Origin: a bacterium
GTDB taxonomy: Bacteria > Bdellovibrionota_C > UBA2361 > RFPC01
Length of the DNA: 64,000 nt
Reading direction: 5' to 3'
NCBI GenBank assembly: GCA_009926305.1
Contig: RFPC01000004.1
Location: 1 to 64,000, forward strand
Positions 1 through 22,423 of the stretch are shown in pieces. Each line of letters starts with the position of its first letter. Position 1 is the first letter of the stretch. The notes under the pieces were generated by a model, which did not search any database, was not told the origin of the DNA, and worked only from the letters and a program-made list of their open reading frames with translations. The position numbers and the translations under genes were made by a program.

Positions 1-586
1 CGGTAATAGGACCCGCCGCAATTTCTGGGATACCATCGCCATTCAGATCCGGGATTGTGGCAGCTCCATCTCCAAAGTCAGACTGATTTCCAAAAATCGA
101 GTACAGCTCACCTGATGAGAGAGATACTACATGAATTCGTCCATTTCTTACTGGGTATGAGTTTTTTTGGCTGACGAAGAAAAACTCATCTTTGCCATCT
201 AAATTGATATCTCCAACTGTCCCGCCGCGCTCTCCGAGCCTTTCAGTGAGCGTTGCATCTCCAAAAGAATATTGTACCAATAAGGAGAGATCCTCGCCGG
301 AATAGAAGGCAATACGCCTCTCTCCTGAAAATGATGACGTGCCTACCCCCCGATACTTTGTGGCGGCGACATCAACGAATCCATCTCCATTAATATCACC
401 AGCAAACCAAGTATAAAATCCGAGCTCTTCGGCAGTATTCGTATCCGGAGAGGAGAAGCCTCGCCCGTATCCAGCAGTTGAGGCGCTGGGATAACATTGT
501 TGAGCGTTAACGCTAGAGGGTGCTCGCAATGCCGAGAGGAATATCAGGATAAAAAGGACAAGAGTATGAGGAGCGGAGTATTTCAT
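1..586 (-). CDS. Secreted FG-GAP repeat protein, N-terminal part (cut by window edge)
   Basis: Reading the minus strand from the ATG at 586 gives an open frame that runs off the left edge (about 195 residues visible). It opens with a signal peptide: a charged start, a hydrophobic stretch LVLFILIFLSAL, and a probable cleavage after SVNA. The mature part contains calcium-binding FG-GAP/VCBS motifs of the D-x-N-x-D-G-x-x-D type: DINGDGFVDVA, a weaker DINLDGKDEFF, and DLNGDGIPEIA. Such repeats form beta-propellers in secreted or surface proteins. Cysteine is rare. The partner or ligand cannot be inferred. The nearby flagellin at 3837-5801 carries the same repeat type, so the two may share an origin for this module, but that is only a suggestion. 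The C-terminus and full length are unknown. Confidence 0.8.
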   Translation of the reverse strand, partial: MKYSAPHTLVLFILIFLSALRAPSSVNAQQCYPSASTAGYGRGFSSPDTNTAEELGFYTWFAGDINGDGFVDVAATKYRGVGTSSFSGERRIAFYSGEDLSLLVQYSFGDATLTERLGERGGTVGDINLDGKDEFFFVSQKNSYPVRNGRIHVVSLSSGELYSIFGNQSDFGDGAATIPDLNGDGIPEIAAGPIT

Positions 587-738
587 GCGGCGATCCTTTG
601 CTGGTAACAACGTCTCCGAGGTCTCTATTCAAATTTTTAGTGCGCAGTGCGCAAACGAAGACACTAATACATTCGAAAAAACCGACCATTTGTTTCCAAA
701 AAGTATGCAGATTATTTTCAGAGAGTTAGGCCAACTGC

Positions 739-3461: not shown

Positions 3462-3836
3462 CTCTGTGTTTCAGTGGATTTCTGGTAAACACAAACACAC
3501 ACGTGTGCGGCCGACGGTTGGAGCACAAAACCTTAATAAAAAGAATATGTTATAGCAATATGGTATTATAAATTCTCACTCAGTAATTTTCGATCTCGCG
3601 GAGTATTGAATTTTCTGAGTTTCGGTTCGGGAAACCCCAACGGAGGAATTCCGATAGCAGTACAAAACTATAGTTATTGCAATGCCTTATCCTGCTACGA
3701 TTTTTCTGCACCGTGTAGGGATTTTACGGGGAAGATGACTCCTTACTATACGTATTCATTAATTAATTGGATCCACCGATACGTAATACGTGTAGTACTC
3801 AAATGACTGAGAGAGTAAAGTTGTAAGGACGCAAGA
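3462..3836. other. Divergent intergenic region between two flagellin genes
   Basis: About 375 bases without a convincing gene. The section 3530-3590 is AT-rich. A 10-bp palindrome CACACGTGTG lies at 3498-3507. GTAAGGA lies about 10 bases before the large flagellin ATG and probably serves as its ribosome binding site. I found no clear sigma-28 or sigma-54 promoter by eye. Confidence 0.5.
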
Positions 3837-5801
3837 ATGGCGTCTCCAGTCACATTCAGGACGAATATTTTTTCTTTGCGCGCCGCGCAACAGCTCACCC
3901 GTGCGCGCGGAGAACAGGATTCAATAGCAACTCGACTCTCTTCAGGTCAAAGAATCAATCGTGCTAGTGATGATGCAAGTAGTTTGGCAATCGCTTCCTC
4001 GCTTGGAGTGAAGGAGAGGATCTACTCTCGAGCAATTCTCAACATTAATGATGGGCTAAGTCTTCTCAATATAGCAGACGCAACCGTCCAAGAGCTTACT
4101 GGGATCGTCACCCGGATTAAGGAGCTCGCACAACAATCGGCGAATGGTGTATATACTACCAGCCAGCGTTCCGCTCTGCACAAGGAAGCGCAAGAGTTGC
4201 AATCTGAATATTCCCGTCTTACCGATTCTGCAAAGTTCAATGGCACTCAAGTTTTTAATTCCGCAAGCACAGGTCTTAGTCTTCAAGCTGGATTTGGAGT
4301 TATTGGTGATATTGGGGCTTCGCTGTCTGTTGAGCAGGTATCTTCTGGTCCCACGGGGGATGGCACCTTTGGAACAGATACGAACATCGGCGTTCTCGTG
4401 CCGACTGACAGATATTCGTTCGGAGACCTTACCGGAGATGGTGCCCCCGACACCGTGTATTTCAGCACCAGCGGATGGGTTGTCTATGAGAATGATGGTG
4501 CTGGCTCGTTCAGCGCAAGCTCTACAGTGACACTCCCCACTCCTGCTTCGAGCGGCGTGGGTCTGCCGAGCATAGTTGACTTAAACAATGATGGGCATTT
4601 GGACTTGGTCGGTGAAATGACAATAGAAAATGGTGCTCTTGATGACCGAGTATTTGCCAGTGCCCTTGGAAATGGAGATGGCACGTTCCAGTCCGTTACC
4701 ACCGTATTCCTTGATACTACCTCCACCCCATATGCGAGTAGCGTTTACGCCGAAGATTTTAATGGGGATGGATATCTAGACGCAGCTATAGTGGGCTTAG
4801 GGTTTCTTGCCTATGGGAATGGTGATGGGACCTTTTCGAGTCCTGTGAACACTACAATGTTCACTTTGCAGCAAGACTATATTGGAGATGTTTCTGGCGA
4901 TGGGAAAGCAGATCTTATTAACATTCAGGGAACGACCTCCCCGCGACTTTCAGTGTCACTTGGAAATGGAGATGGCACTTTCTCTGTGTCCTACTACAAT
5001 CTTTCAGGACTTACTGCTCACACCTATGGGGCTGGGTATGTTGTTGGAGACTTTGATGGTGATGGAAATGAAGATGTTGTAAGCCAGATGTATAATGGTG
5101 GTGTATCGAGTTTAGCTACGCAACTCGGAAACGGAGATGGAACATTTCAAAGTCACTTTATCAGTTCCTCCTCAGTCCAAGATGTTCGACACTGGAACAG
5201 TGAAGCCGCTGATTTTAATGGTGATGGAAATCTTGATATTGTGTTTAATACGTGGGATAGCCCCGGCTCGGGAGCTATCACCATGGATATTCACTTTGGG
5301 AATGGAGATGGAACATTCACGACAGGCGGTTCCTATTCCACTAGTATTCGCCCATCTCTGAAGGGGCAGAATTTGGCTGTTTCAGACCTTAATGGAGACG
5401 GTGCACTTGATATAGCAGGTGGAGGATATAATGCGCTCTTTGGAGCAGTCAGCAGCGATATTCCAACAATTACCACAGACTACACTGACATGCCTAGCTT
5501 GTCCCTTCTCTCTCGGTCCGATGCTCTTACCGCGATTGAAACTGCAGATTCAACGCTAGAGGCGCTGAATTCCTCTGCAGGGAGAATAGGTTCTTCCATG
5601 AGTAGGCTCTTTGCAGCCTCTGAGAATTTGAGGTCACAGGCTGTCGAGTTTAAAGCCGCAGAAAGCCGTATTATGGATGTAGATGTTGCGGAAGCAGCAG
5701 ACCTCCTCAAGATTCAGATACTTGAAAACGTTGGGGCTGCAGTACTTGCACAGGCAAATCAGCTGCCAGAGCTTCTGTTAAAGCTTTTATCGAGTAGCTA
5801 A
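3837..5801 (+). CDS. Flagellin with a seven-repeat FG-GAP (beta-propeller) central domain
   Basis: The 654-residue protein has canonical flagellin ends. Residues 1-165 contain TNIFSLRAAQQL, RLSSGQRINRASDDASSLAI (33-52) and the D1 helix ending LTDSAKFNG. Residues 555-654 contain the returning D1 helix and ILENVGAAVLAQANQLPELL. Between them, where variable D2/D3 domains normally sit, are seven D-x-[ND]-x-D-G-x-x-D motifs starting near residues 197, 248, 307, 351, 405, 459 and 517. They alternate with GNGDGTF-type loops (174, 221, 278, 327, 376, 431, 488). Seven such repeats are the number expected for a closed integrin-alpha-like propeller. The flagellin ends should polymerise in the filament with the propeller exposed and binding calcium; that is inference. 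The start has GTAAGGA upstream. No other flagellar structural gene is nearby. Confidence 0.93.
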   Translation: MASPVTFRTNIFSLRAAQQLTRARGEQDSIATRLSSGQRINRASDDASSLAIASSLGVKERIYSRAILNINDGLSLLNIADATVQELTGIVTRIKELAQQSANGVYTTSQRSALHKEAQELQSEYSRLTDSAKFNGTQVFNSASTGLSLQAGFGVIGDIGASLSVEQVSSGPTGDGTFGTDTNIGVLVPTDRYSFGDLTGDGAPDTVYFSTSGWVVYENDGAGSFSASSTVTLPTPASSGVGLPSIVDLNNDGHLDLVGEMTIENGALDDRVFASALGNGDGTFQSVTTVFLDTTSTPYASSVYAEDFNGDGYLDAAIVGLGFLAYGNGDGTFSSPVNTTMFTLQQDYIGDVSGDGKADLINIQGTTSPRLSVSLGNGDGTFSVSYYNLSGLTAHTYGAGYVVGDFDGDGNEDVVSQMYNGGVSSLATQLGNGDGTFQSHFISSSSVQDVRHWNSEAADFNGDGNLDIVFNTWDSPGSGAITMDIHFGNGDGTFTTGGSYSTSIRPSLKGQNLAVSDLNGDGALDIAGGGYNALFGAVSSDIPTITTDYTDMPSLSLLSRSDALTAIETADSTLEALNSSAGRIGSSMSRLFAASENLRSQAVEFKAAESRIMDVDVAEAADLLKIQILENVGAAVLAQANQLPELLLKLLSSS

Positions 5802-8667: not shown

Positions 8668-11600
8668 CTATCTCCCCGCATCACTATTACGGAACATTTT
8701 GCCCCATCCACGGATGGCCCATCGAAGTTCTACAGAGTCATTCAGTTCTTTAAAGCGAAATAGTCGCGGTCTTGAGGTGATCGAAGCGCCTTTCCCTGTC
8801 AGCTTGAAACGCCAGCTGCCTTGTTTCACGGAGAATGTCCCGTAGTAGGGGTCTTCGATTTGCCAATTATATCGCTCCGAAGTCTTGAGCTCTCGCGCCT
8901 TCACAAGAAGCTCTGCTCGTTCGAGTCTTCGAATTTGTCTTGGAGTGAGCGGTTTTCCATTTCTTCCGTATAACTCAATGGTGACCGAAACTTCAGAAGG
9001 CGTTGCGCCACACGTTACGAGTGGATGCGAATTTTCGTTGATAACTAGCCCATCTTCCATGAGTTGAAGTGTTGAGTGAGGACTTATTTGTCGACAAATG
9101 ATCTCTTCATGGAGTGGAGCAAGAACCAGAGGAACTGGAGAGGATTCCCATACGAGTTTTGTTGCTAAAGTCGTGTAAGAGATCGGGTTTGGATTTGTTA
9201 CTTTCCAGCAGATATCAGAGATGACCTCCATCGTTGAGAGCGAAGCGTCTCCATCTGGGGTAGTGCCAACACACAGCGCCTCAATGGAGATAGGCTCTTC
9301 GACACAATCCATCAAGCCATTGTTATTCTCATCTGTATCTTCAGCGCCGCAGCCACAGATGCCCGGTTCTATTTTCGCGTTATCGAGTGGACATTGGTCG
9401 ATGCAGTTTGCCACTCCATCTCCGTCAAAGTCTGTATCTACTACTCCGCATCCGCAAACTCCCGGCTCTTGTTTTCTGGGGTCAAAGGGACACGCTTCCT
9501 GACAATCATACAAACCATCTCTGTCACTATCGGTATCTTGTACTCCACATCCACATATTCCAGGAAGCGTTTTTGCTGGATCATCCGTGCAGAGGTCTAA
9601 ACAGTTTGGTGTATCATCTCCATCATTGTCGAGATCTGGAGTGCCGCATCCACAAATCCCTGGCGAATCTTTCGCTGGATCTGCGATACATAGGTCGTTG
9701 CAGTCAGCCACTCCATCACCATCAGTATCACTATCACTTACTCCGCATCCACATTGACCAGGCTCTCCCTTGGTCGGATCACTACTACAGAGGTCCTGAC
9801 AGTCGGGAATACCGTCGCTATCACTGTCGGTGTCAGACGTGCCACAGCCACATAGACCCGGGAAGAGCTTCTGTGGATCGGCTGGACATTGCTCCTGACA
9901 GTCAGGGATCCCATCCCCGTCTGAGTCGCCATCAGGAATTCCACAACCACAGATCCCAGGAGACGTTTTTAGCGGATCATACGGACACTGCTCCTGGCAG
10001 TCTACCGTCCCGTCCTGGTCCTGATCGGAATCAAGAACTCCACATCCACAAATCCCAGGCGCTTGCTTCGTTCGATCATTCGGGCACTGATCAATGCAAT
10101 CCGCCACGTTATCATTATCAGAATCTGTCTCAGGTGCACCGCATCCACACTGTCCTGGGGAGCTCTTCTCAGGGTCGGTAATGCATTGGTCGATACAATC
10201 CGCCACTCCATCGCCATCGGAGTCCATCTCAGACGAGCCGCATCCACACTGTCCTGGAGAGGTTTTATCTGGATCGCTTACGCATTGGTCATTGCAGTCT
10301 GGAGTCCCATCTCCATCGGAATCAGTGTCTAGCACTCCACAGCCACAAATGCCTGGTGTTGTTTTGAGTGCATCGCTGGGACATTCTTCCTGACAATCAA
10401 GAAATCCATCACCATCAGTATCAATATCCGCCGAACCGCAGCCACAGATGCCAGGCAAGAGTTTAAGCGGATCGAAAGGACACTCCTCTCGACAGTCAAG
10501 GGTTCCGTCTCGGTCGGTGTCTCTATCCGGTATTCCACAGCCACACTCCCCAGGAGCCAGCTTTGAAGCATCATTCGGACACTCATCAAGGCAATCTGCA
10601 GTTTGATCATTGTCGCTGTCGGTATCAGCGGTTCCGCATCCACACTGCCCTGGAGCAACTTTCCCGACGTCATTTACGCACTGGTCGACACAATCTGATA
10701 CCCCATCACCATCGGTATCAGTATCAGGAATTCCACATCCACACTGCCCAGGGGAGGCTTTTTCAGGATCCTCAACACACTGGTCATAACAATCGGGAGT
10801 GCCATCTCCATCGGTATCGGTATCAACCCTCAGACATCCGCACTGGCCAGGTGTGGTTTTGTTGGGATCGGTCGCACAGAGGTCATTGCAATCTGGTGTT
10901 CCATCACTATCAGTGTCTGTATCGAAAAAGCCACATCCACATAGCCCCGGTGTTAATTTTAACGGATCACTTGGACACTCTTCTTGACAGTCAAGCACTC
11001 CATCTCCATCTATATCAGTGTCACGCGTATCGCATCCACAAATACCAGGTGTTATTTTGTATGGATTATCAGAGCACTGATCGTTGCAATCAGGAGTTCC
11101 GTCACCATCACGATCGGTATCTGGAATTCCACAACCACACTGTTCGGGTTCGCTTTTTCTTGGATCATTGACACACTGATCAATACAATCCGCGACGCCA
11201 TCCCCATCGGTATCTGTGTCGCTTGAACCACAGCCACATTGCCCTGCCGCGCTTTTATTGGGATCTTGAGCACATTGGTCCGTACAATCTGGCGTGCCGT
11301 CATTATCACTATCGGTATCTGCCTCTCCGCAGCCACATAAGCCAGGTTCGTTCTTTAATGGATCCTCTTTGCACCGATCATTACAATCAAGAATGCCATC
11401 GTTGTCAGTGTCGGTATCTAAAATTCCACATCCACATATTCCGGGTTCGCTCTTGTTACTATCCGTAGGACAGCTATCGTTGCAATCAAGAATGCCATCA
11501 CCGTCAGTATCCTTGTCTGCAACCCCACAACCACATTCCCCAGGCGAGCTTTTCCCAGGGTCATTTACGCATCCATCGTTACAATCTGGGATTCCATCTT

Positions 11601-13782
11601 GGTCGCTATCGTCCTCTGAGATTCCACAACCACATTCTCCAGGGAGTGCTTTTTCAGGATCATTCGGGCACTGATCGAATACACACGTGAAATCAAGATC
11701 GGTAAAGTTCCGGTCTACGGTGCCCGAACGAGTTTGAGGTGAATCACAGATATAATTTGCCTGGTCTGGTGTTATGCTCCACTGGTCACCATCGCTAAAA
11801 AAGACATATATTCCTTCTTCATTGGTGGTAGTCGATTCCTGCGCGCCGTCTACGATGAGTGTTATGGGCATATCTGCTAGAGGAACGTTTGTGTCTCGAT
11901 TGGTAACCTTTCCCGTGAGAAGAAAGCTGTAGTCGTTTGTTATCTGAAAGTTGAAGTCATCTTTGTTACAACTCAGCACGGGATCGGCAATTGCTGCAGG
12001 GGTGAAGGTGACCTCTGAGCCATCTCGAATGTACTCTGCGCGGATCCAGAGAGATTCTCCTTGGGGAATCGAGAAAGAGTAGGTTCCATCTTCTCTAGTG
12101 GTCGTCAGTGCGCTTTCTCCATTATAAAGAGTTGCGCCAGAGACTCGATTTCCAGCCTCATCCATAACAATTCCACTGACTGAGAACGCCCCATTGTGAG
12201 GGGAGCAGGAGGGGGGAGTTTCTTCAAATGGTTTCCCCGCTTTTGTAGCAACCATTCGAAAATGTAAACCTGTTATCTCTTCTACCGAGGGAGGAATATC
12301 GACTTCCTTATCGAAGATAACACCATCATACTGTGCAGAAATTGTTGATGGCGTATTGTGCGGTAAGGTCACGGTGTACGTGCCATCTTCTCTCGAAATG
12401 GCCTGGGCAACGCCATTTACATAAATCAAGACCCGAGAGAAAGGAGCGGAAAGTGAATTCAACACGGTGCCACGTACGATCCGTTCGGAAGCGGGGGGTT
12501 TAGCAAGAGCAGTGACTTCTTCTCGATATCCCGATATTTGGGGGCATAACGAGAAGCTATTCTGATTGGTAAATGAATAGCGAGTATCTTGGGGCAAGAA
12601 TCGAATAGCATTGTCAGGAGTAGAGCAGTCTCTGGGACTGAGACTCAAATGAACTTCTCCATCCTTATTGGTTGTTCGATAGGTGCGTTCTTCACACCGA
12701 TATGGATCCTGAATCGAGATTCTAATTCCAGAGACAGGGGATTGATTCGTATCGAGGATTTGAATGGTGGTCCGTAAAGATGGTGTTCCAAGGGTCCGTG
12801 CTGAGAAATCACAGTAGCCATTCGGACAGGTGGTTTTGCTGAGAATGAGGTCTGAGGGAGTTAAAACATAACGACTGGATTCGGGGATAGCGCTCAGGGG
12901 CTGCTGAGGGCTTAAGCCATAAGAAGAGAGTTCAAATGTTGTCCCGGCGTTTATGACACGGGCAATTTGTGGGAGCCAAAAACCGATTAGCATAGGGTCT
13001 CCCTCTCGATCGTGGGCATTGAGTCGATAAGTTCCTTCGGGAAGGGGTTCTCTTGGCGGAGTGTTCCGTCCTGTGAAGGCTCGTACTACAACATCTCGCG
13101 GAAGATGCCCAGGGCTTCCACTCTGTATGCAAAGCGCGCTTTGTGACGCACCCAGCCGCTCAAGCCTGAGATCTGCTCCGGTAGGTGAGGCAAGAAATGC
13201 ATGATAAAAGTCGTTTGCGGTTTCCTGGTCTATATCGCTGCAATAAGCAATTGCTCTCTGGGGGATCGAAAATACTGCCGTTCCTGTCTCGTCTGTATGT
13301 CTTTCACACCCATGCGGTGTTCCAAGGAGCCAAACAGGGGCAGCCTGCACCCCGTCTCCCTGCTCGTCTAATACGATCACTCTTACGAGTTGGTTTTGGT
13401 TCTCAGTGTTTCTGGTGGCAGAGATGGTGCAAATTCCATCGGGACAATCAGAGAGTTCTATTGAGGCTGGTGAAAAGCTGTAGCCTTCTTTGAAGAAGAA
13501 AACCGTCGCATCAAGAAGAGAGTCCAACTCAAAAATATTAAAGGAGAAGGTGCCTGAGGGGTCGGTAAATGAGCCTCCAGCCGGAAATCCACGAGTGCCA
13601 TACATGGTGACCCCAGAAACTCCCACGGTTTCTCCATTCACCTCCTCTGTGACTGAGATTGAAAAAGTGTATGAATCAGCCTGAGCGAACACGAATGATG
13701 GGCACAGTGCTGAAGCACTAAGAAGAATAAGACCTATAACGGTCTTCTGAAGAAAACGGAATTCTCTCAACTGATACAACAA
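8668..13782 (-). CDS. Giant secreted protein: Ig-like domains plus 24 thrombospondin-type-3-like repeats
   Basis: The 1704-residue protein starts with a signal peptide (VIGLILLSASALCPSFVFAQ). Residues about 40-700 hold several beta-sandwich modules of the carboxypeptidase-regulatory or SdrD/CNA-B type, for example VRGTVLNSLSAPFSRVLIYV and LTGKVTNRDTNVPLADMPI. Residues 705-1496 are an uninterrupted array of 24 repeats, each exactly 33 residues, with consensus C-x-x-D-P-x-K-x-x-PG-x-CGCG-x-x-D-x-D-x-DGDG-x-x-DC. The D-x-D-x-DG core is the calcium-binding pattern of thrombospondin type 3 repeats; the paired Cys suggest disulfides. A beta-rich C-terminal domain of about 200 residues follows. It is probably a calcium-stabilised extracellular or surface stalk protein. 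No LPXTG, PEP-CTERM or Type IX sorting tail is evident. It is followed in operon by a smaller secreted protein. Confidence 0.88.
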   Translation of the reverse strand: MLYQLREFRFLQKTVIGLILLSASALCPSFVFAQADSYTFSISVTEEVNGETVGVSGVTMYGTRGFPAGGSFTDPSGTFSFNIFELDSLLDATVFFFKEGYSFSPASIELSDCPDGICTISATRNTENQNQLVRVIVLDEQGDGVQAAPVWLLGTPHGCERHTDETGTAVFSIPQRAIAYCSDIDQETANDFYHAFLASPTGADLRLERLGASQSALCIQSGSPGHLPRDVVVRAFTGRNTPPREPLPEGTYRLNAHDREGDPMLIGFWLPQIARVINAGTTFELSSYGLSPQQPLSAIPESSRYVLTPSDLILSKTTCPNGYCDFSARTLGTPSLRTTIQILDTNQSPVSGIRISIQDPYRCEERTYRTTNKDGEVHLSLSPRDCSTPDNAIRFLPQDTRYSFTNQNSFSLCPQISGYREEVTALAKPPASERIVRGTVLNSLSAPFSRVLIYVNGVAQAISREDGTYTVTLPHNTPSTISAQYDGVIFDKEVDIPPSVEEITGLHFRMVATKAGKPFEETPPSCSPHNGAFSVSGIVMDEAGNRVSGATLYNGESALTTTREDGTYSFSIPQGESLWIRAEYIRDGSEVTFTPAAIADPVLSCNKDDFNFQITNDYSFLLTGKVTNRDTNVPLADMPITLIVDGAQESTTTNEEGIYVFFSDGDQWSITPDQANYICDSPQTRSGTVDRNFTDLDFTCVFDQCPNDPEKALPGECGCGISEDDSDQDGIPDCNDGCVNDPGKSSPGECGCGVADKDTDGDGILDCNDSCPTDSNKSEPGICGCGILDTDTDNDGILDCNDRCKEDPLKNEPGLCGCGEADTDSDNDGTPDCTDQCAQDPNKSAAGQCGCGSSDTDTDGDGVADCIDQCVNDPRKSEPEQCGCGIPDTDRDGDGTPDCNDQCSDNPYKITPGICGCDTRDTDIDGDGVLDCQEECPSDPLKLTPGLCGCGFFDTDTDSDGTPDCNDLCATDPNKTTPGQCGCLRVDTDTDGDGTPDCYDQCVEDPEKASPGQCGCGIPDTDTDGDGVSDCVDQCVNDVGKVAPGQCGCGTADTDSDNDQTADCLDECPNDASKLAPGECGCGIPDRDTDRDGTLDCREECPFDPLKLLPGICGCGSADIDTDGDGFLDCQEECPSDALKTTPGICGCGVLDTDSDGDGTPDCNDQCVSDPDKTSPGQCGCGSSEMDSDGDGVADCIDQCITDPEKSSPGQCGCGAPETDSDNDNVADCIDQCPNDRTKQAPGICGCGVLDSDQDQDGTVDCQEQCPYDPLKTSPGICGCGIPDGDSDGDGIPDCQEQCPADPQKLFPGLCGCGTSDTDSDSDGIPDCQDLCSSDPTKGEPGQCGCGVSDSDTDGDGVADCNDLCIADPAKDSPGICGCGTPDLDNDGDDTPNCLDLCTDDPAKTLPGICGCGVQDTDSDRDGLYDCQEACPFDPRKQEPGVCGCGVVDTDFDGDGVANCIDQCPLDNAKIEPGICGCGAEDTDENNNGLMDCVEEPISIEALCVGTTPDGDASLSTMEVISDICWKVTNPNPISYTTLATKLVWESSPVPLVLAPLHEEIICRQISPHSTLQLMEDGLVINENSHPLVTCGATPSEVSVTIELYGRNGKPLTPRQIRRLERAELLVKARELKTSERYNWQIEDPYYGTFSVKQGSWRFKLTGKGASITSRPRLFRFKELNDSVELRWAIRGWGKMFRNSDAGR
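9295..11670 (-). repeat. 24 tandem 99-bp units encoding 33-residue Cys/Asp repeats
   Basis: The array is exactly 24 x 99 bp with no indels; every unit begins at the conserved Cys codon. Unit ends vary (NDQ, IDQ, QEE and so on). Every fifth unit shares features. Units 8, 13, 18 and 23 begin CPxDPxK. Units 7, 12, 17 and 22 end with a QEE/REE/QEQ/QEA type. Units 5, 10, 15 and 20 carry DGDGV[AS]DC. Units 4, 9, 14 and 19 carry DG[TI]PDC. This indicates growth by copying of five-unit (495-bp) blocks followed by divergence. Confidence 0.95.
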
Positions 13783-16565: not shown

Positions 16566-16885
16566 TCGAACGATTCAGAGAATTTCTTAATTATTGGACG
16601 GCAAGAAGCTGATAGGGATCGTAAAAACATGGATTCTCGTAGTAGGAATCTATGAATAATCATCACGCTTTCCTAAGAGATTCTATGTTTTCTACTCTCA
16701 TATTTTTTTTGGGATTCTATATGTAAAGAATTCTTAGAAGGTTTCGATGAAGAACAATGCGGTCTGTCAATCAGGAAGATTCTGCTGCACCAACACTTCG
16801 GGCGTGGGGTGAAGGTCTCTATATAAACCTTTTTGGAGAGAGCTTGCGGAGGCTTTCCCCCGTGTCCGAATTTTCTTGGAGTTGT

Positions 16886-19800
16886 ATGAGGATGATTCAA
16901 AGAATCTTTCGGTCTCTCGTCGCGCTATCTCTGTTTTTCTCCTTTTCTCTTCTCATTGGAAGTAATCAACTCTTCGCTCAGCCAGAGAGTGAGCAGATGG
17001 TTGCGGTTTCTCAGCCCATTTCATGGGAGGAGGGCACGTGTTTATTTACCCATCAAAAAGAATGGATCGAGGGACTGAGACGCATCTCTCCAGAGCTGAG
17101 CTCCTATACCAATGAGCAGATAACAGATGCGATATTTTCGATTCTTGGAGTAGAGGCAAGATCACAAGATTCGCTGGTCTCAGGCCAAGAGCTTATAGCA
17201 GCTGATTGTGATCGATTTGACTTTTCCTTTGCAGCTGACCTTCTCGATGCGCAGCTCGTCGAGCACTTTGACCTGAATTACGATATTCAACCAGCACAGT
17301 TTAATGATGAGCATCTTTTAAAGTTATGGGGAATGCGCACCAATCCAGGGGCGAACGCCGAGAATGCCTGGGCGGAAAATGGTGATGGAGAAGGAGTTGT
17401 CGTTACTGTCATTGATACTGGGATTGATTATACACACCCAGATCTCGTTGATCGGATGTGGGTAAATCCTGGTGAAATCGCGGGAAATGGTATCGATGAC
17501 GATGGCAATGGGGTGATCGATGATGTTTATGGTGCAAATTATTATGAAAATAACGGCGATCCGAATGAAGCGAATGGCACGACTCATGGCACTCACTGTG
17601 CTGGAACTATAGGAGCTACTGGCAATAATGGAATTGGAGTTTCCGGAGTTGCTCCTCTAGTGAAGTTAATGGCTATCCGATTCCTTGGGCCGTATGGCAG
17701 TACGCTTGGAGCTATTCGCTCTGTGAATTACATGAACAGAATGAAGTCTGTTTACGGCGTGAATATCGTTGCTTCAAGCAACTCCTGGGGTGGTGGTGGT
17801 TACAACAGCACGCTCAAAGATGCCATTGATACCGCTGGTAGTCTTGGGATTGTATTCATAGCAGCTGCTGGAAACGACAATCGAGATAATGATACCTATG
17901 CACAATATCCAGCAAGCTATGCCTCTGACAATATAATAGCCGTTGCCTCTCATACCTCGAGTGGTTCCAGGTCATATTTTTCAAACTATGGCGCAACAAC
18001 AGTCGATATTTCAGCGCCTGGCTCATCGATTTATAGTACATATCCAAACAACTCTTATCGCTATCTGAGTGGAACCTCGATGGCAACGCCTCATGTTTCA
18101 GGGGCAGTAGCAGTTTTACGGGCGGCAAAGCCTGATCTCTCCGTTTCAGAAACTATTGCACTTCTCTACCAACACAGTACAAATTTACCAAACTTCTCGG
18201 GAGGATTAACAAATCCACAGTCGGGACTTGATGTGGCGACAGCCCTATCAAATCTCACCGTGAATCAGCCACCACTTTTAGGCGCCATCTCCAATCAAAG
18301 CTTCTCAGCCTCGGCAGGGGAGGCGACTATTGTGGTCAGTGCATCAGATCCAGATCGGTATGGTGAAGGAGCCCCTGGTGCAGTGAGTAGCTGCGCTGTG
18401 GCAGTGCAGGGAACAACATCTCCTGAGGGCTATGCATTCTTTGAGAGTTTTAGTCCTTTTTGTGCCTCTGCAAATTGTGAAAGAGATGTCTATGGACAAG
18501 ATCAAAAGCGTCTCTACGGAATGCACGGAGAAATATTTGAGCTCTCGGATGATGACACGATTCGACGAGTAGACGGAGGGCTGTCAGTAGAAATTGGTGA
18601 GTTTCCAGGCGCATTCTCCGACCCGAGTATTTTGACGGATCCAGTTGGTCCCGTCGCTCCAGCTTCCGCTGATTTTTCAGCAGAGTGTCTTGTTCGTGAT
18701 GCAAATACTATTGAAATAACCTTCTCATGGAGCCAAATGTTTTGGGGCAGTGCTGCTATTCAGGCATCCGTCACCGATATCGAGGGTCTTGATGCTACGA
18801 GAAGTTTTGAGGTGACCGTCACATCACAGCCTCCTGTCATCTCTGAAATTTCTCATCAGAGTGTTTCTCTGGCAACAGGCGCGACTACGGTTCCATTTCA
18901 GGTAACCGATCCCGATGGAGATGCTGTAACATGCTCAGCTTCTGCTGCACCAGTTGTGACGTCACCACCACATAGTTCGTTCTACTCCACTTATTTGCCT
19001 CGGTGTGTTGCCTCGGATTGTTCTGGTCCCAATGGAACCAAGCTGTTGCTTGGGCAAGCGGGTGAATATCTTTTGGTTTCTTCGAATGATGAAGTGGTTC
19101 GACATGCAAATGAACAACGCACTTCACTCGGAAGTTTTTTAGGTGCGTACAATGATATTACTCTGCTTACCGCGCCCGTGTTCCCTTTAGAAACTGGGGC
19201 TATCACTGCTAGTATTTCTAACATTGGAGAGATCGGAGTTTCGTTTTCTACAGACCGAACCGGAGAGGCGACGGTTACAGTAACGTGTTCGTCACGTGGG
19301 GGAGTGGCAACTGAGAATTTCAATGTGATACTTACCGCGACACCTCCCGTAGTATCTTCACTCCCGAACTCTAAGACGTATCCTGGAGCCCGACTATCGA
19401 TACCCGTTCAGATTGATAACGGAGAAGGAATTACACAGCTCTCGCTTAGAAAAGGAGCAGACCCATCCATGCGAGCCGCTCAGCTGGCAAGTGGTTTGTT
19501 TCTATCGCAATATGAGCCTCAGTATGATGACCTGCTCTATGCGGGCGCAAAATGGGTTCGAGGAGGCGTGAGTTATCTTCGCTTACAACCGTTTATTGAT
19601 AGCTCTGGAGAGCTTCATGCCCTGGTTTATGCCGACCCAGAGCCGATCCTGCTTGCTCTGCTGCCAGGAGAGTACTACGAAGATCCGTGGCGCTTAGTAA
19701 ACGCGTTGCCATCGCCTGTGGTAACCCCGAGTTTTCGGTTGACTGAAAGTACTGTATCCATCGATATTCCAAGCACGTATTCTTTCGGCACCATGGCCTT

Positions 19801-22423
19801 CGATCTGAGTGCACAGAAGGGCAACTATCGCTTGTCACAACGGTTTTATGTGGATGTTTCAAATACTCCGCCCACAGCAGAATTCACCTCAATTCATACT
19901 CTCGGGGGAGCTACTCAAAGCCTCGCGGTTCCACTTACTGTTCGCGATCCAGATGGTCAGCCAGTTCGTATAGCCCTTCAATCAGTGAAAGATATTGCAC
20001 AAGAACTTGCGAAATTGGTGGAGACAAAAAGCCTCATCGCACGGAATTCTGATTATGATGGTCCGGGTTATGCTGTCTGGTCTCAGCGAGAGGCACGTTG
20101 GTATTTTGCGATTCCATCGACAGAGTCTCAAAATGAAGTCTGTGAGCTTCGAGGCGGAAGCAGTGATGGAACGCTCTATGAGATAATGCCATCCTCCTTT
20201 TGTGATGATCAAAATGTACTGCTCGATATTGCATCGTCTTCCGGTAATCCAAATGCGACACTCTCTTCAACGGGACAGGATGCATATTCGATAGAAATTT
20301 CTCCCAATGGCTCACGTATCATGCGTGTGACACTGACTCTCTTTGACGGAGCTTCTTATGCGTTCGCTCATATCTTCGTGATGAATAACAACCGTTCTCC
20401 GCAGATCGTAAAGCCAGATCAAGCGCTTGTCGCTCCAGGGACGGAAGTTGAACAGAGCATCTCAGTGCGTGATCCAGACGGTGATACGCTCTCGTACTCT
20501 CTTTCCGCAAAATCATGTAATCAGAAAGCTTATGAGCTTCAGCGAGAATACGGCCTCAGCTTTCATCGAAACTGCTCGCTTGCTTCTTCTGATTGTGAAC
20601 AGGTGGGCGCCCGAAAGATGTTATATTCGTCGCGGTATTTTCGAGCTGTCTTTCTTTTTCTACGAGATGATATTGTAGAATTAAGCTTCGAGAGTGACGG
20701 GAGCAGTCCATTTGCGGAACTCCCCGTACTCTATTATCACTACATTCCCGCACTCTTGGCTCCGACGGCGACATCATCCTCTGTCCAGTCCTCACTTGTA
20801 GCAAACAGTAGTGATAGCGTAATGATAGCAATTCGCGCCGAATCAAATGCCTGTATCACGCTCTCCGCGAGTGACGGCGACTTGGAGAGTACTGAGAGCT
20901 GGATGATAGCAGTTTCGCAAGCGGTAAATAGTAGTGGCATTGTGATGAGAGATACTGATGGAGATGGGCTCTCAGATCAATACGAGACGAGAAATGGCGG
21001 AGATCCGTTTAATCCACAGATTGTGCAACGTGGGTTTACTGGAACAGCTATTGTGCCTTTCTCTCAAAGAGAGAAATCAGAAGTACTGTTTGTGGCGAAG
21101 AACTCTGGTAATGAGCCTGCCAGTGGTATGTTGACCGTATTTGACTCTTCTGGGAATACGATCAAGGAAATGGATATTTCTTTTGATCCCCAAGCAGAAC
21201 AAAGAACAGTTGTATTTGAAGAACGAGCACAAGGAGATGGCCCATTCCAAGGGTGGTTGAAGTTTGTATCATCCAGTCAAACTCTGCGACCAGAGCTGAT
21301 GCTTATTGGAGATAGTGCAGATAGCGAAGTGAGAATGATTCATTCACGAACTGCTTTTGCTAGTTTGAGCAATGCTCCTCTCTATACTTCGTATTATCGG
21401 CAGCACTTACTCCTAACAGACGGACACCTCTCATCTGTGCCTGCAGTTTGTAACGGCACCTGTAGTGCTCGTTTGCGTCTTGTGAATGTGGGCAGTGTGG
21501 CGGCAGAGGCACAAATCTCGGTCTACGATGAGAATGGGAGACGAGTTCTTGAGCGATATGAAATAGTCGAATCAGGTCAATTGCGAGATATATCGTTGAC
21601 AGAGGAACTTCCTCTTTCATTTAGCGGTAGTATCACGATCGAGACAGAAACGAGAGATGTGATTGCATTTGCTGAAGAGAGTGCCCTGAGTTCTGGTGCT
21701 TTCGTATATATCCAGCAGTTTGCTGCGCTTTTAGGGGATTTGATGAATGGCATTGGAGTGTATGAAGAGATAGGAGAACGAGAGAGTGGAACGATATCTC
21801 TTCTGAATACGAGAGTTCTTCGCTCTCTTTCTGTTACGGTATTCATTGCCGATGAAAATGGGTTTCCTCTGATTCAAGATGAATATGTCTTGGGTGCAAA
21901 AGAACGAAGAGATATTGATCTCCAGAAGCTCTTCCAGGGTGAACATCAAGCTCTCACGGTCACGATCACTACCGATGCACCCCAATCTTTACTGGCATTC
22001 CAACATAGAGCGTTAAGGGATCAATACGGACTTATTACATTCTTCAGTTCAGCGATGGCTGATGGAGCAGATGTCGAGCAGGTACTGGCACACTGGGCTA
22101 CTCTCAAGAAGTTGGCACTCCAGGAGAAAAAGACTGGAGATATCAAAGATGCAAGGATCGAGCTACTGAAGATAAAAAGGATACCCAATAAGAACCGAAA
22201 GAGGAGATTTTTCGTCCGCATTGAAGATTCAGCAGAGCGACCAATTGCTAAAATACCATTCAAAGTATGCTTTACCAAAAAGTCAGGAGGAGAGAGGTGT
22301 AGAAGACGTAGGGTGTTCTCTGATGAGGCAGGAAGAGTGGGATTCAAGCTTCATCCTAGGAAACTAGAGAGTCTTTTCTTGAGAGCAGTAGATGGAGGCC
22401 GGGTAGTTCGCTTTGCGAGATAG
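16886..22423 (+). CDS. Giant secreted subtilisin-like (S8) serine protease with repeated beta domains
   Basis: From the ATG at 16886 (TTGGAG upstream) the product is 1845 residues. It starts with a signal peptide (FRSLVALSLFFSFSLLIG, cleavage near LFAQ). The S8 catalytic triad is intact: Asp177 in VIDTGIDYTHPD, His234 in THGTHCAGT, Ser398 in LSGTSMATPHVSG; the AAAGND oxyanion region is also present. From about 440 to 1350 comes a series of cadherin/Ig-like modules with DPDGD-type motifs. Three of them contain a related two-Cys insert (near 525, 706 and 1230). A thrombospondin-3-like DTDGDGLSDQYE lies near 1355, followed by beta-rich C-terminal domains and a basic end (GGERCRRRR). It probably digests proteins outside the cell or at the surface. 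A longer frame starting at 16757 has no ribosome binding site. No dedicated propeptide or inhibitor gene is next to it. Confidence 0.93.
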   Translation: MRMIQRIFRSLVALSLFFSFSLLIGSNQLFAQPESEQMVAVSQPISWEEGTCLFTHQKEWIEGLRRISPELSSYTNEQITDAIFSILGVEARSQDSLVSGQELIAADCDRFDFSFAADLLDAQLVEHFDLNYDIQPAQFNDEHLLKLWGMRTNPGANAENAWAENGDGEGVVVTVIDTGIDYTHPDLVDRMWVNPGEIAGNGIDDDGNGVIDDVYGANYYENNGDPNEANGTTHGTHCAGTIGATGNNGIGVSGVAPLVKLMAIRFLGPYGSTLGAIRSVNYMNRMKSVYGVNIVASSNSWGGGGYNSTLKDAIDTAGSLGIVFIAAAGNDNRDNDTYAQYPASYASDNIIAVASHTSSGSRSYFSNYGATTVDISAPGSSIYSTYPNNSYRYLSGTSMATPHVSGAVAVLRAAKPDLSVSETIALLYQHSTNLPNFSGGLTNPQSGLDVATALSNLTVNQPPLLGAISNQSFSASAGEATIVVSASDPDRYGEGAPGAVSSCAVAVQGTTSPEGYAFFESFSPFCASANCERDVYGQDQKRLYGMHGEIFELSDDDTIRRVDGGLSVEIGEFPGAFSDPSILTDPVGPVAPASADFSAECLVRDANTIEITFSWSQMFWGSAAIQASVTDIEGLDATRSFEVTVTSQPPVISEISHQSVSLATGATTVPFQVTDPDGDAVTCSASAAPVVTSPPHSSFYSTYLPRCVASDCSGPNGTKLLLGQAGEYLLVSSNDEVVRHANEQRTSLGSFLGAYNDITLLTAPVFPLETGAITASISNIGEIGVSFSTDRTGEATVTVTCSSRGGVATENFNVILTATPPVVSSLPNSKTYPGARLSIPVQIDNGEGITQLSLRKGADPSMRAAQLASGLFLSQYEPQYDDLLYAGAKWVRGGVSYLRLQPFIDSSGELHALVYADPEPILLALLPGEYYEDPWRLVNALPSPVVTPSFRLTESTVSIDIPSTYSFGTMAFDLSAQKGNYRLSQRFYVDVSNTPPTAEFTSIHTLGGATQSLAVPLTVRDPDGQPVRIALQSVKDIAQELAKLVETKSLIARNSDYDGPGYAVWSQREARWYFAIPSTESQNEVCELRGGSSDGTLYEIMPSSFCDDQNVLLDIASSSGNPNATLSSTGQDAYSIEISPNGSRIMRVTLTLFDGASYAFAHIFVMNNNRSPQIVKPDQALVAPGTEVEQSISVRDPDGDTLSYSLSAKSCNQKAYELQREYGLSFHRNCSLASSDCEQVGARKMLYSSRYFRAVFLFLRDDIVELSFESDGSSPFAELPVLYYHYIPALLAPTATSSSVQSSLVANSSDSVMIAIRAESNACITLSASDGDLESTESWMIAVSQAVNSSGIVMRDTDGDGLSDQYETRNGGDPFNPQIVQRGFTGTAIVPFSQREKSEVLFVAKNSGNEPASGMLTVFDSSGNTIKEMDISFDPQAEQRTVVFEERAQGDGPFQGWLKFVSSSQTLRPELMLIGDSADSEVRMIHSRTAFASLSNAPLYTSYYRQHLLLTDGHLSSVPAVCNGTCSARLRLVNVGSVAAEAQISVYDENGRRVLERYEIVESGQLRDISLTEELPLSFSGSITIETETRDVIAFAEESALSSGAFVYIQQFAALLGDLMNGIGVYEEIGERESGTISLLNTRVLRSLSVTVFIADENGFPLIQDEYVLGAKERRDIDLQKLFQGEHQALTVTITTDAPQSLLAFQHRALRDQYGLITFFSSAMADGADVEQVLAHWATLKKLALQEKKTGDIKDARIELLKIKRIPNKNRKRRFFVRIEDSAERPIAKIPFKVCFTKKSGGERCRRRRVFSDEAGRVGFKLHPRKLESLFLRAVDGGRVVRFAR

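Follow-up and report, generated by a model that had tools for sequence, protein, structure and literature searches.

A paralogous family of flagellins with a predicted seven-bladed FG-GAP propeller insert in one bacterial lineage

We identified in the 64,000-nucleotide stretch of DNA analyzed here (the window) a gene for a flagellin, P0001, whose middle region is an FG-GAP/VCBS insert predicted to fold as a closed seven-bladed propeller and whose relatives form a large paralogous family in the lineage. The gene (3837..5801, + strand, as are all of its features below) is one intact open reading frame of 654 amino acids, with a probable ribosome-binding site read from the sequence (AAGGA, 3825..3829) ~8 nt upstream of the ATG. 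The N-terminal end has the Flagellin_N (D0/D1) domain (PF00669, 3.6e-24; residues 8–143, 3858..4265), matched at the same place by a genome search, and the C-terminal end has the Flagellin_C (D1/D0) domain (PF00700, 3.3e-15; residues 568–651, 5538..5789). The propeller lies between them, from residue 174 to ~546 (4356..5474), as located by Pfam FG-GAP_3, AlphaFold2 (AF2) and Foldseek. Pfam matched FG-GAP_3 in six stretches of the insert (2.5e-38) and FG-GAP at 2.4e-11. All of these matches are above the curated cut-offs and far beyond chance, in agreement with the canonical flagellin ends and FG-GAP insert of the preliminary description. Furthermore, the best PDB matches to the ends are polymerized flagellins, both in sequence and in fold. 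The HExxH motif of metallopeptidases is absent from the whole P0001 sequence, which rules out a metallopeptidase insert. Also ruled out is an assembly artefact joining two genes, a concern raised in the preliminary description, because this domain arrangement is found again in at least 18 genomes of the phylum, as well as in named MAGs that were assembled independently, and base composition is smooth through the gene.

The insert contains seven calcium loops of the D-x3-D-x3-D form, one per blade: DLTGDGAPD in blade 1 (from residue 197, 4425..4451), DLNNDGHLD in blade 2 (from residue 248, 4578..4604), DFNGDGYLD in blade 3 (from residue 307, 4755..4781), DVSGDGKAD in blade 4 (from residue 351, 4887..4913), DFDGDGNED in blade 5 (from residue 405, 5049..5075), DFNGDGNLD in blade 6 (from residue 459, 5211..5237) and DLNGDGALD in blade 7 (from residue 517, 5385..5411). 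All seven had been described as D-x-[ND]-x-D-G-x-x-D motifs, but this strict pattern is found in five, with deviations in blades 1 and 4. Similarly, the seven GDGTF-type loops described with them are all GxGxF motifs, of which six read GDGTF and one GAGSF. The first GDGTF (residues 174–178) comes ahead of the blade 1 calcium loop, and there is no such motif after that of blade 7, as in a 1+3 ‘velcro’ closure. The N-terminal GDGTF strand (4356..4385), conserved in the family, supplies the outer strand of the last blade in the propeller model (DSSP strand 5–14). The fungal lectin AAL2 has a comparable ‘end to end’ ring closure (PMC4483166).

Structural models support this arrangement. AlphaFold2 modeled the whole protein with a pLDDT of 70.8 (using 18 relatives) and the propeller on its own with a pLDDT of 80.7 and a pTM of 0.81. 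Foldseek matched the ends of the whole-protein model to flagellin filaments and its insert, over 357–359 columns, to PAL and PVL, both seven-bladed lectins. The propeller-only model matched the UmbA4 adaptor, PAL, PVL, AAL2, CRTAC1 and integrin alphaV, with query-normalized TM scores of ~0.54–0.63 (lower for a few integrin entries) at which the detailed geometry is uncertain. In sequence comparisons, fungal lectins and CRTAC1 were the best relatives of the insert with a solved structure. The pTM, the full-length matches to seven-bladed folds and the velcro strand thus predict the closed ring that had been proposed for the insert, and its conserved loop residues suggest that the ring could bind calcium.

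The fungal lectins PVL, PAL and AAL2 (2bwm, 5mb4 and 4tqj), the best matches of the insert in both sequence and fold, also have seven blades and calcium loops. However, they are free lectins with an Asn/Asp-Trp-His pocket for GlcNAc in six blades (PMC4483166), whereas the P0001 family lacks the pocket motif. The Trp-His (W-H) motif of the AAL2 type was found in none of 721 blades, which rules out a PVL-like GlcNAc lectin and indicates that the ligand, if any, differs from that of AAL2. Furthermore, only two metal sites are occupied in AAL2 (PMC4483166), whereas all seven calcium loops are conserved in the FG-GAP flagellins. The propeller of integrin alpha subunits is also similar in having seven FG-GAP-type blades with DxDxDG loops (TM ~0.6), but it shares only ~12% identity with that of P0001, which lacks an integrin beta partner or signaling context.

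The search across genomes for flagellin ends combined with FG-GAP repeats, suggested as a check in the preliminary description, revealed a lineage-wide family. A profile built from 16 members and run against all 46 genomes of the phylum recovered full-length relatives with both flagellin ends and the propeller in at least 18 of them, and 22 genomes had a match at E ≤ 1e-60. The number of propeller flagellin genes in a related genome reaches a dozen or more, in some cases in tandem with up to four adjacent copies. For example, the genome with the highest flagellin count (G005) has 36 Flagellin_N genes and 26 matches at E ≤ 1e-60, some of which are non-flagellin FG-GAP proteins or fragments. Named relatives among the matches listed from a scan of 84,980 species, which give a lower bound on the spread of the family, include the MAGs Bdellovibrionales HKST-UBA19/20/25, Deltaproteobacteria UBA2409 and similar. 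The same profile found no flagellin-ended propellers in 80 genomes of another phylum, where it matched only free FG-GAP proteins, and returned free FG-GAP proteins only, or nothing, in two tiny phyla. We also noted a class of flagellins of ~470 amino acids (L182, L183, L184 and L203) whose FG-GAP inserts are short and degenerate and may represent propellers that have shrunk, and two adjoining flagellins of ~440–460 amino acids (L062:4938-7498), one of which has, by eye, a dockerin/EF-hand-like motif in its middle (DYNGDGRVSPGDLG). An open frame of 4585 amino acids with several FG-GAP stretches (G035:C60) is a possible source of the propeller.

The 104 rows that we compared for conservation represent 103 distinct full-length proteins, one row being a shortened copy of the window gene. 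Insert length is almost always 361–416 residues (median ~381) and the 21 calcium-loop aspartates are 97–100% conserved, bearing out the proposed calcium loops, in propellers with a mean pairwise identity of 31%. Recently amplified VCBS propellers elsewhere differ in blade number (PMC9218822). Paralogues with 90–95% identical flagellin ends have propellers that are only 31–51% identical (median 38%), against the background of 31%. Among these pairs, the closest have ends (~94% identical) with dN ~0.04 and dS ~1, compared to dN 0.4–0.8 and dS ~1.2 or more in the propellers, all rough values because synonymous sites are near saturation. The dS of ~1 indicates that the ends are not simply recent copies and leaves gene conversion unsupported as the cause of their conservation. 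Simple swapping of whole propellers among the sampled genes was also rejected, as no donor was seen and the best propeller match anywhere had a median identity of only 38%.

Sequence turnover is concentrated on one face of the propeller. Mean entropy is low in the calcium loops (1.20 bits) and CD loops (1.49 bits) and high in the DA (3.34 bits) and BC (3.23 bits) loops of the opposite, top face, which is hypervariable. The DA and BC loops make up the sugar pocket of AAL2 (PMC4483166), and variation is thus highest in the loops that correspond to the ligand-binding loops of related lectins. Blades of different proteins are hardly more similar at the same index (35.5% identity) than at different indices (34.6%), for which either blade re-amplification or deep saturation would account. 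Mean identity among a protein’s own blades is 36% in P0001; some members have near-identical blades, such as another propeller flagellin (L022:208-2061; 72%), where this suggests recent amplification or homogenization from a single blade.

We propose that the propeller flagellins form an exported, filament-displayed coat for recognition or adhesion with the calcium loops as its fixed scaffold, a reading to which we give an even chance. P0001 would leave the cell by way of the flagellar channel and join the filament through its conserved D0/D1 ends, with the closed FG-GAP/VCBS propeller displayed on the filament surface. The seven calcium loops would then serve as a fixed scaffold on one face of the propeller and the fast-changing loops of the opposite face as the recognition surface. 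We infer from this arrangement that the filaments, either pure or mixed with short flagellins, could bind polysaccharide, particles or other cells. Because the conserved parts lie in calcium-side loops whereas the opposite, top face varies and its loops turn over fast, recognition is favored over pure stiffening. The flagellar channel is narrow and passes only unfolded protein, and RTX proteins are known to fold after export in response to extracellular calcium. Passage through the channel in the unfolded state, together with the strict calcium loops, suggests by analogy with RTX proteins that scarce cytosolic calcium keeps the propeller head unfolded for export and that extracellular calcium triggers its folding at the tip. 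More tentatively, the flagella of this lineage may carry a genome-encoded repertoire of recognition heads, built from constant polymerizing ends, calcium-locked propellers that fold only after export by extracellular calcium, and hypervariable top loops, providing many binding specificities per cell. Filaments are reported to contain up to 20,000 subunits (PMC7643111); if propeller flagellins assemble, such a filament would display some 140,000 calcium loops on a dense multivalent surface. This makes testable the concepts of flagella as diversified recognition organelles and of calcium as a post-export folding switch.

Flagellins usually have variable middle regions, whose role may be evasion and not binding. 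A serious rival to recognition, though in our view an unlikely one, is that the variable propeller has no specific ligand and shields the filament from flagellotropic phages, predators or grazers, avoidance being what selects for the variation. This would explain why propellers are near background identity even between paralogues with ~94% identical ends, why genomes carry many paralogues and why the top loops change most. However, the strict retention of the seven calcium loops and of the closed-ring length is more than a mere shield needs. Retroelement-driven diversification is also excluded in the genome that carries the window and in four of the eight related genomes screened, in which no reverse transcriptase was detected; diversity-generating retroelements are thus rejected for the genome of the window. 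Also weighed against a recognition surface, and quite unlikely, is a mechanical sheath in which calcium-tightened propellers packed round the core would make the filament stiffer or thicker, as an aid to swimming in floc or biofilm. In other flagellins, outer domains do form sheaths that alter motility (PMC8931119), and propellers of the AAL2 type (~51 x 27 angstrom; PMC4483166) fit the space per subunit that we estimate from standard filament geometry. But packing interfaces should be conserved in a sheath, whereas conservation is confined to the calcium and CD loops, with free divergence of the strands and top loops; the many diverged paralogues per genome also suit a regular lattice poorly. 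Finally, we consider it very doubtful that P0001 is a flagellin-like protein that uses flagellar export but functions as a free monomer or at the hook-filament junction: the gene is solitary, apart from other flagellar genes, its relatives have unrelated neighbors in which no recurrent flagellar genes were found, and NCBIfam gave a sub-threshold match to FlgL, but at 75 bits this match falls short of the cut-off of 127, the best matches in sequence and structure are polymerized flagellins, and dozens of copies in one genome are unlike a junction protein.

Most of the accessory domains known in flagellins are enzymes, together with a few adhesive outer domains, and sialidases have a propeller fold. 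The propeller heads described here belong to a large paralogous family whose members share a constant polymerizing part, while their heads turn over almost independently of it. A 2017 survey of 26,587 flagellins counted 61 domain types inside hypervariable regions, and its table of the ten commonest insert domains lists ‘Sialidase’ (ten sequences) but not FG-GAP (PMC5595980, Table 1). In a largely open literature, with the survey represented by this top-ten table, we found no description of FG-GAP flagellins; publications that combine flagellin with FG-GAP or VCBS wording concern other subjects. Inserted domains in flagellins are thus a known kind, and the proposal that a propeller insert is an undescribed class narrows to the FG-GAP/VCBS insert, Sialidase inserts having already been surveyed. 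As had been pointed out, enzyme inserts are known from flagellinolysins, which, like P0001 and other domain-insert flagellins, place a functional domain in the surface-exposed middle and keep the ends for polymerization (PMC5595980). Proteolytic filaments have been demonstrated experimentally for flagellinolysins (PMC5595980). However, the flagellinolysin insert is a metallopeptidase and that of P0001 an FG-GAP/VCBS propeller without HExxH, and flagellinolysins are scattered by lateral transfer, whereas the FG-GAP flagellins, as far as searched, are a large paralogous family in one lineage. Giant flagellins also have an enlarged middle with repeats and have been shown to form thick filaments (PMC6248924). 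Yet their repeats are not propellers and have no similarity to enzyme domains, and each of the two species studied has one flagellin gene (PMC6248924).

The genome that carries the window (2.99-Mb assembly, 281 contigs, 95.9% complete) encodes one FliS, FlhA-family genes and ten flagellin-like genes. Six of the ten are short (open frames of ~290–310 amino acids), two are large (619 and 660 amino acids) and the remaining two are weaker matches that may be hook-associated. The FlhA-family genes number three (G000:C3, C8 and C107, one matched as two pieces of one frame), which suggests that the genome encodes at least two export systems of the flagellar or type III kind. A search for sigma-28 promoters gave no clear candidate, with scores barely above those of shuffled sequences. 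The second large flagellin, P0002 (616 amino acids; G000:C20, locus L007:61-1911, - strand), has a PD40/TolB-like insert. Of six aligned homologues of P0002, four have detectable PD40 (WD40-like propeller) repeats (best E 7.5e-5), which were not significant in P0002 itself; strong homologues are present in G001, G002, G004 and G037 only. In a quick tree of flagellin ends with a weak backbone, the short flagellins group together (SH-aLRT 100), as do the PD40 flagellins (92), and the FG-GAP flagellins, which may share one origin, fall outside both clades. Propeller inserts therefore probably arose at least twice in the lineage.

Other genes in the window also encode candidate surface or secreted proteins. 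The start of a secreted FG-GAP protein lies at 2-610 (- strand), its remainder cut off by the edge of the contig, which begins at window base 1. A 1704-amino acid protein (8668-13782, - strand) has, by eye, a long run of thrombospondin type 3-like D-x-D-x-D-G-x-x-D-C-x-D-x-C repeats and is probably another calcium-binding surface protein. Lastly, a protein of 1888 amino acids (16757-22423, + strand) combines a subtilisin-like protease region, also recognized by eye, with a long extracellular part.
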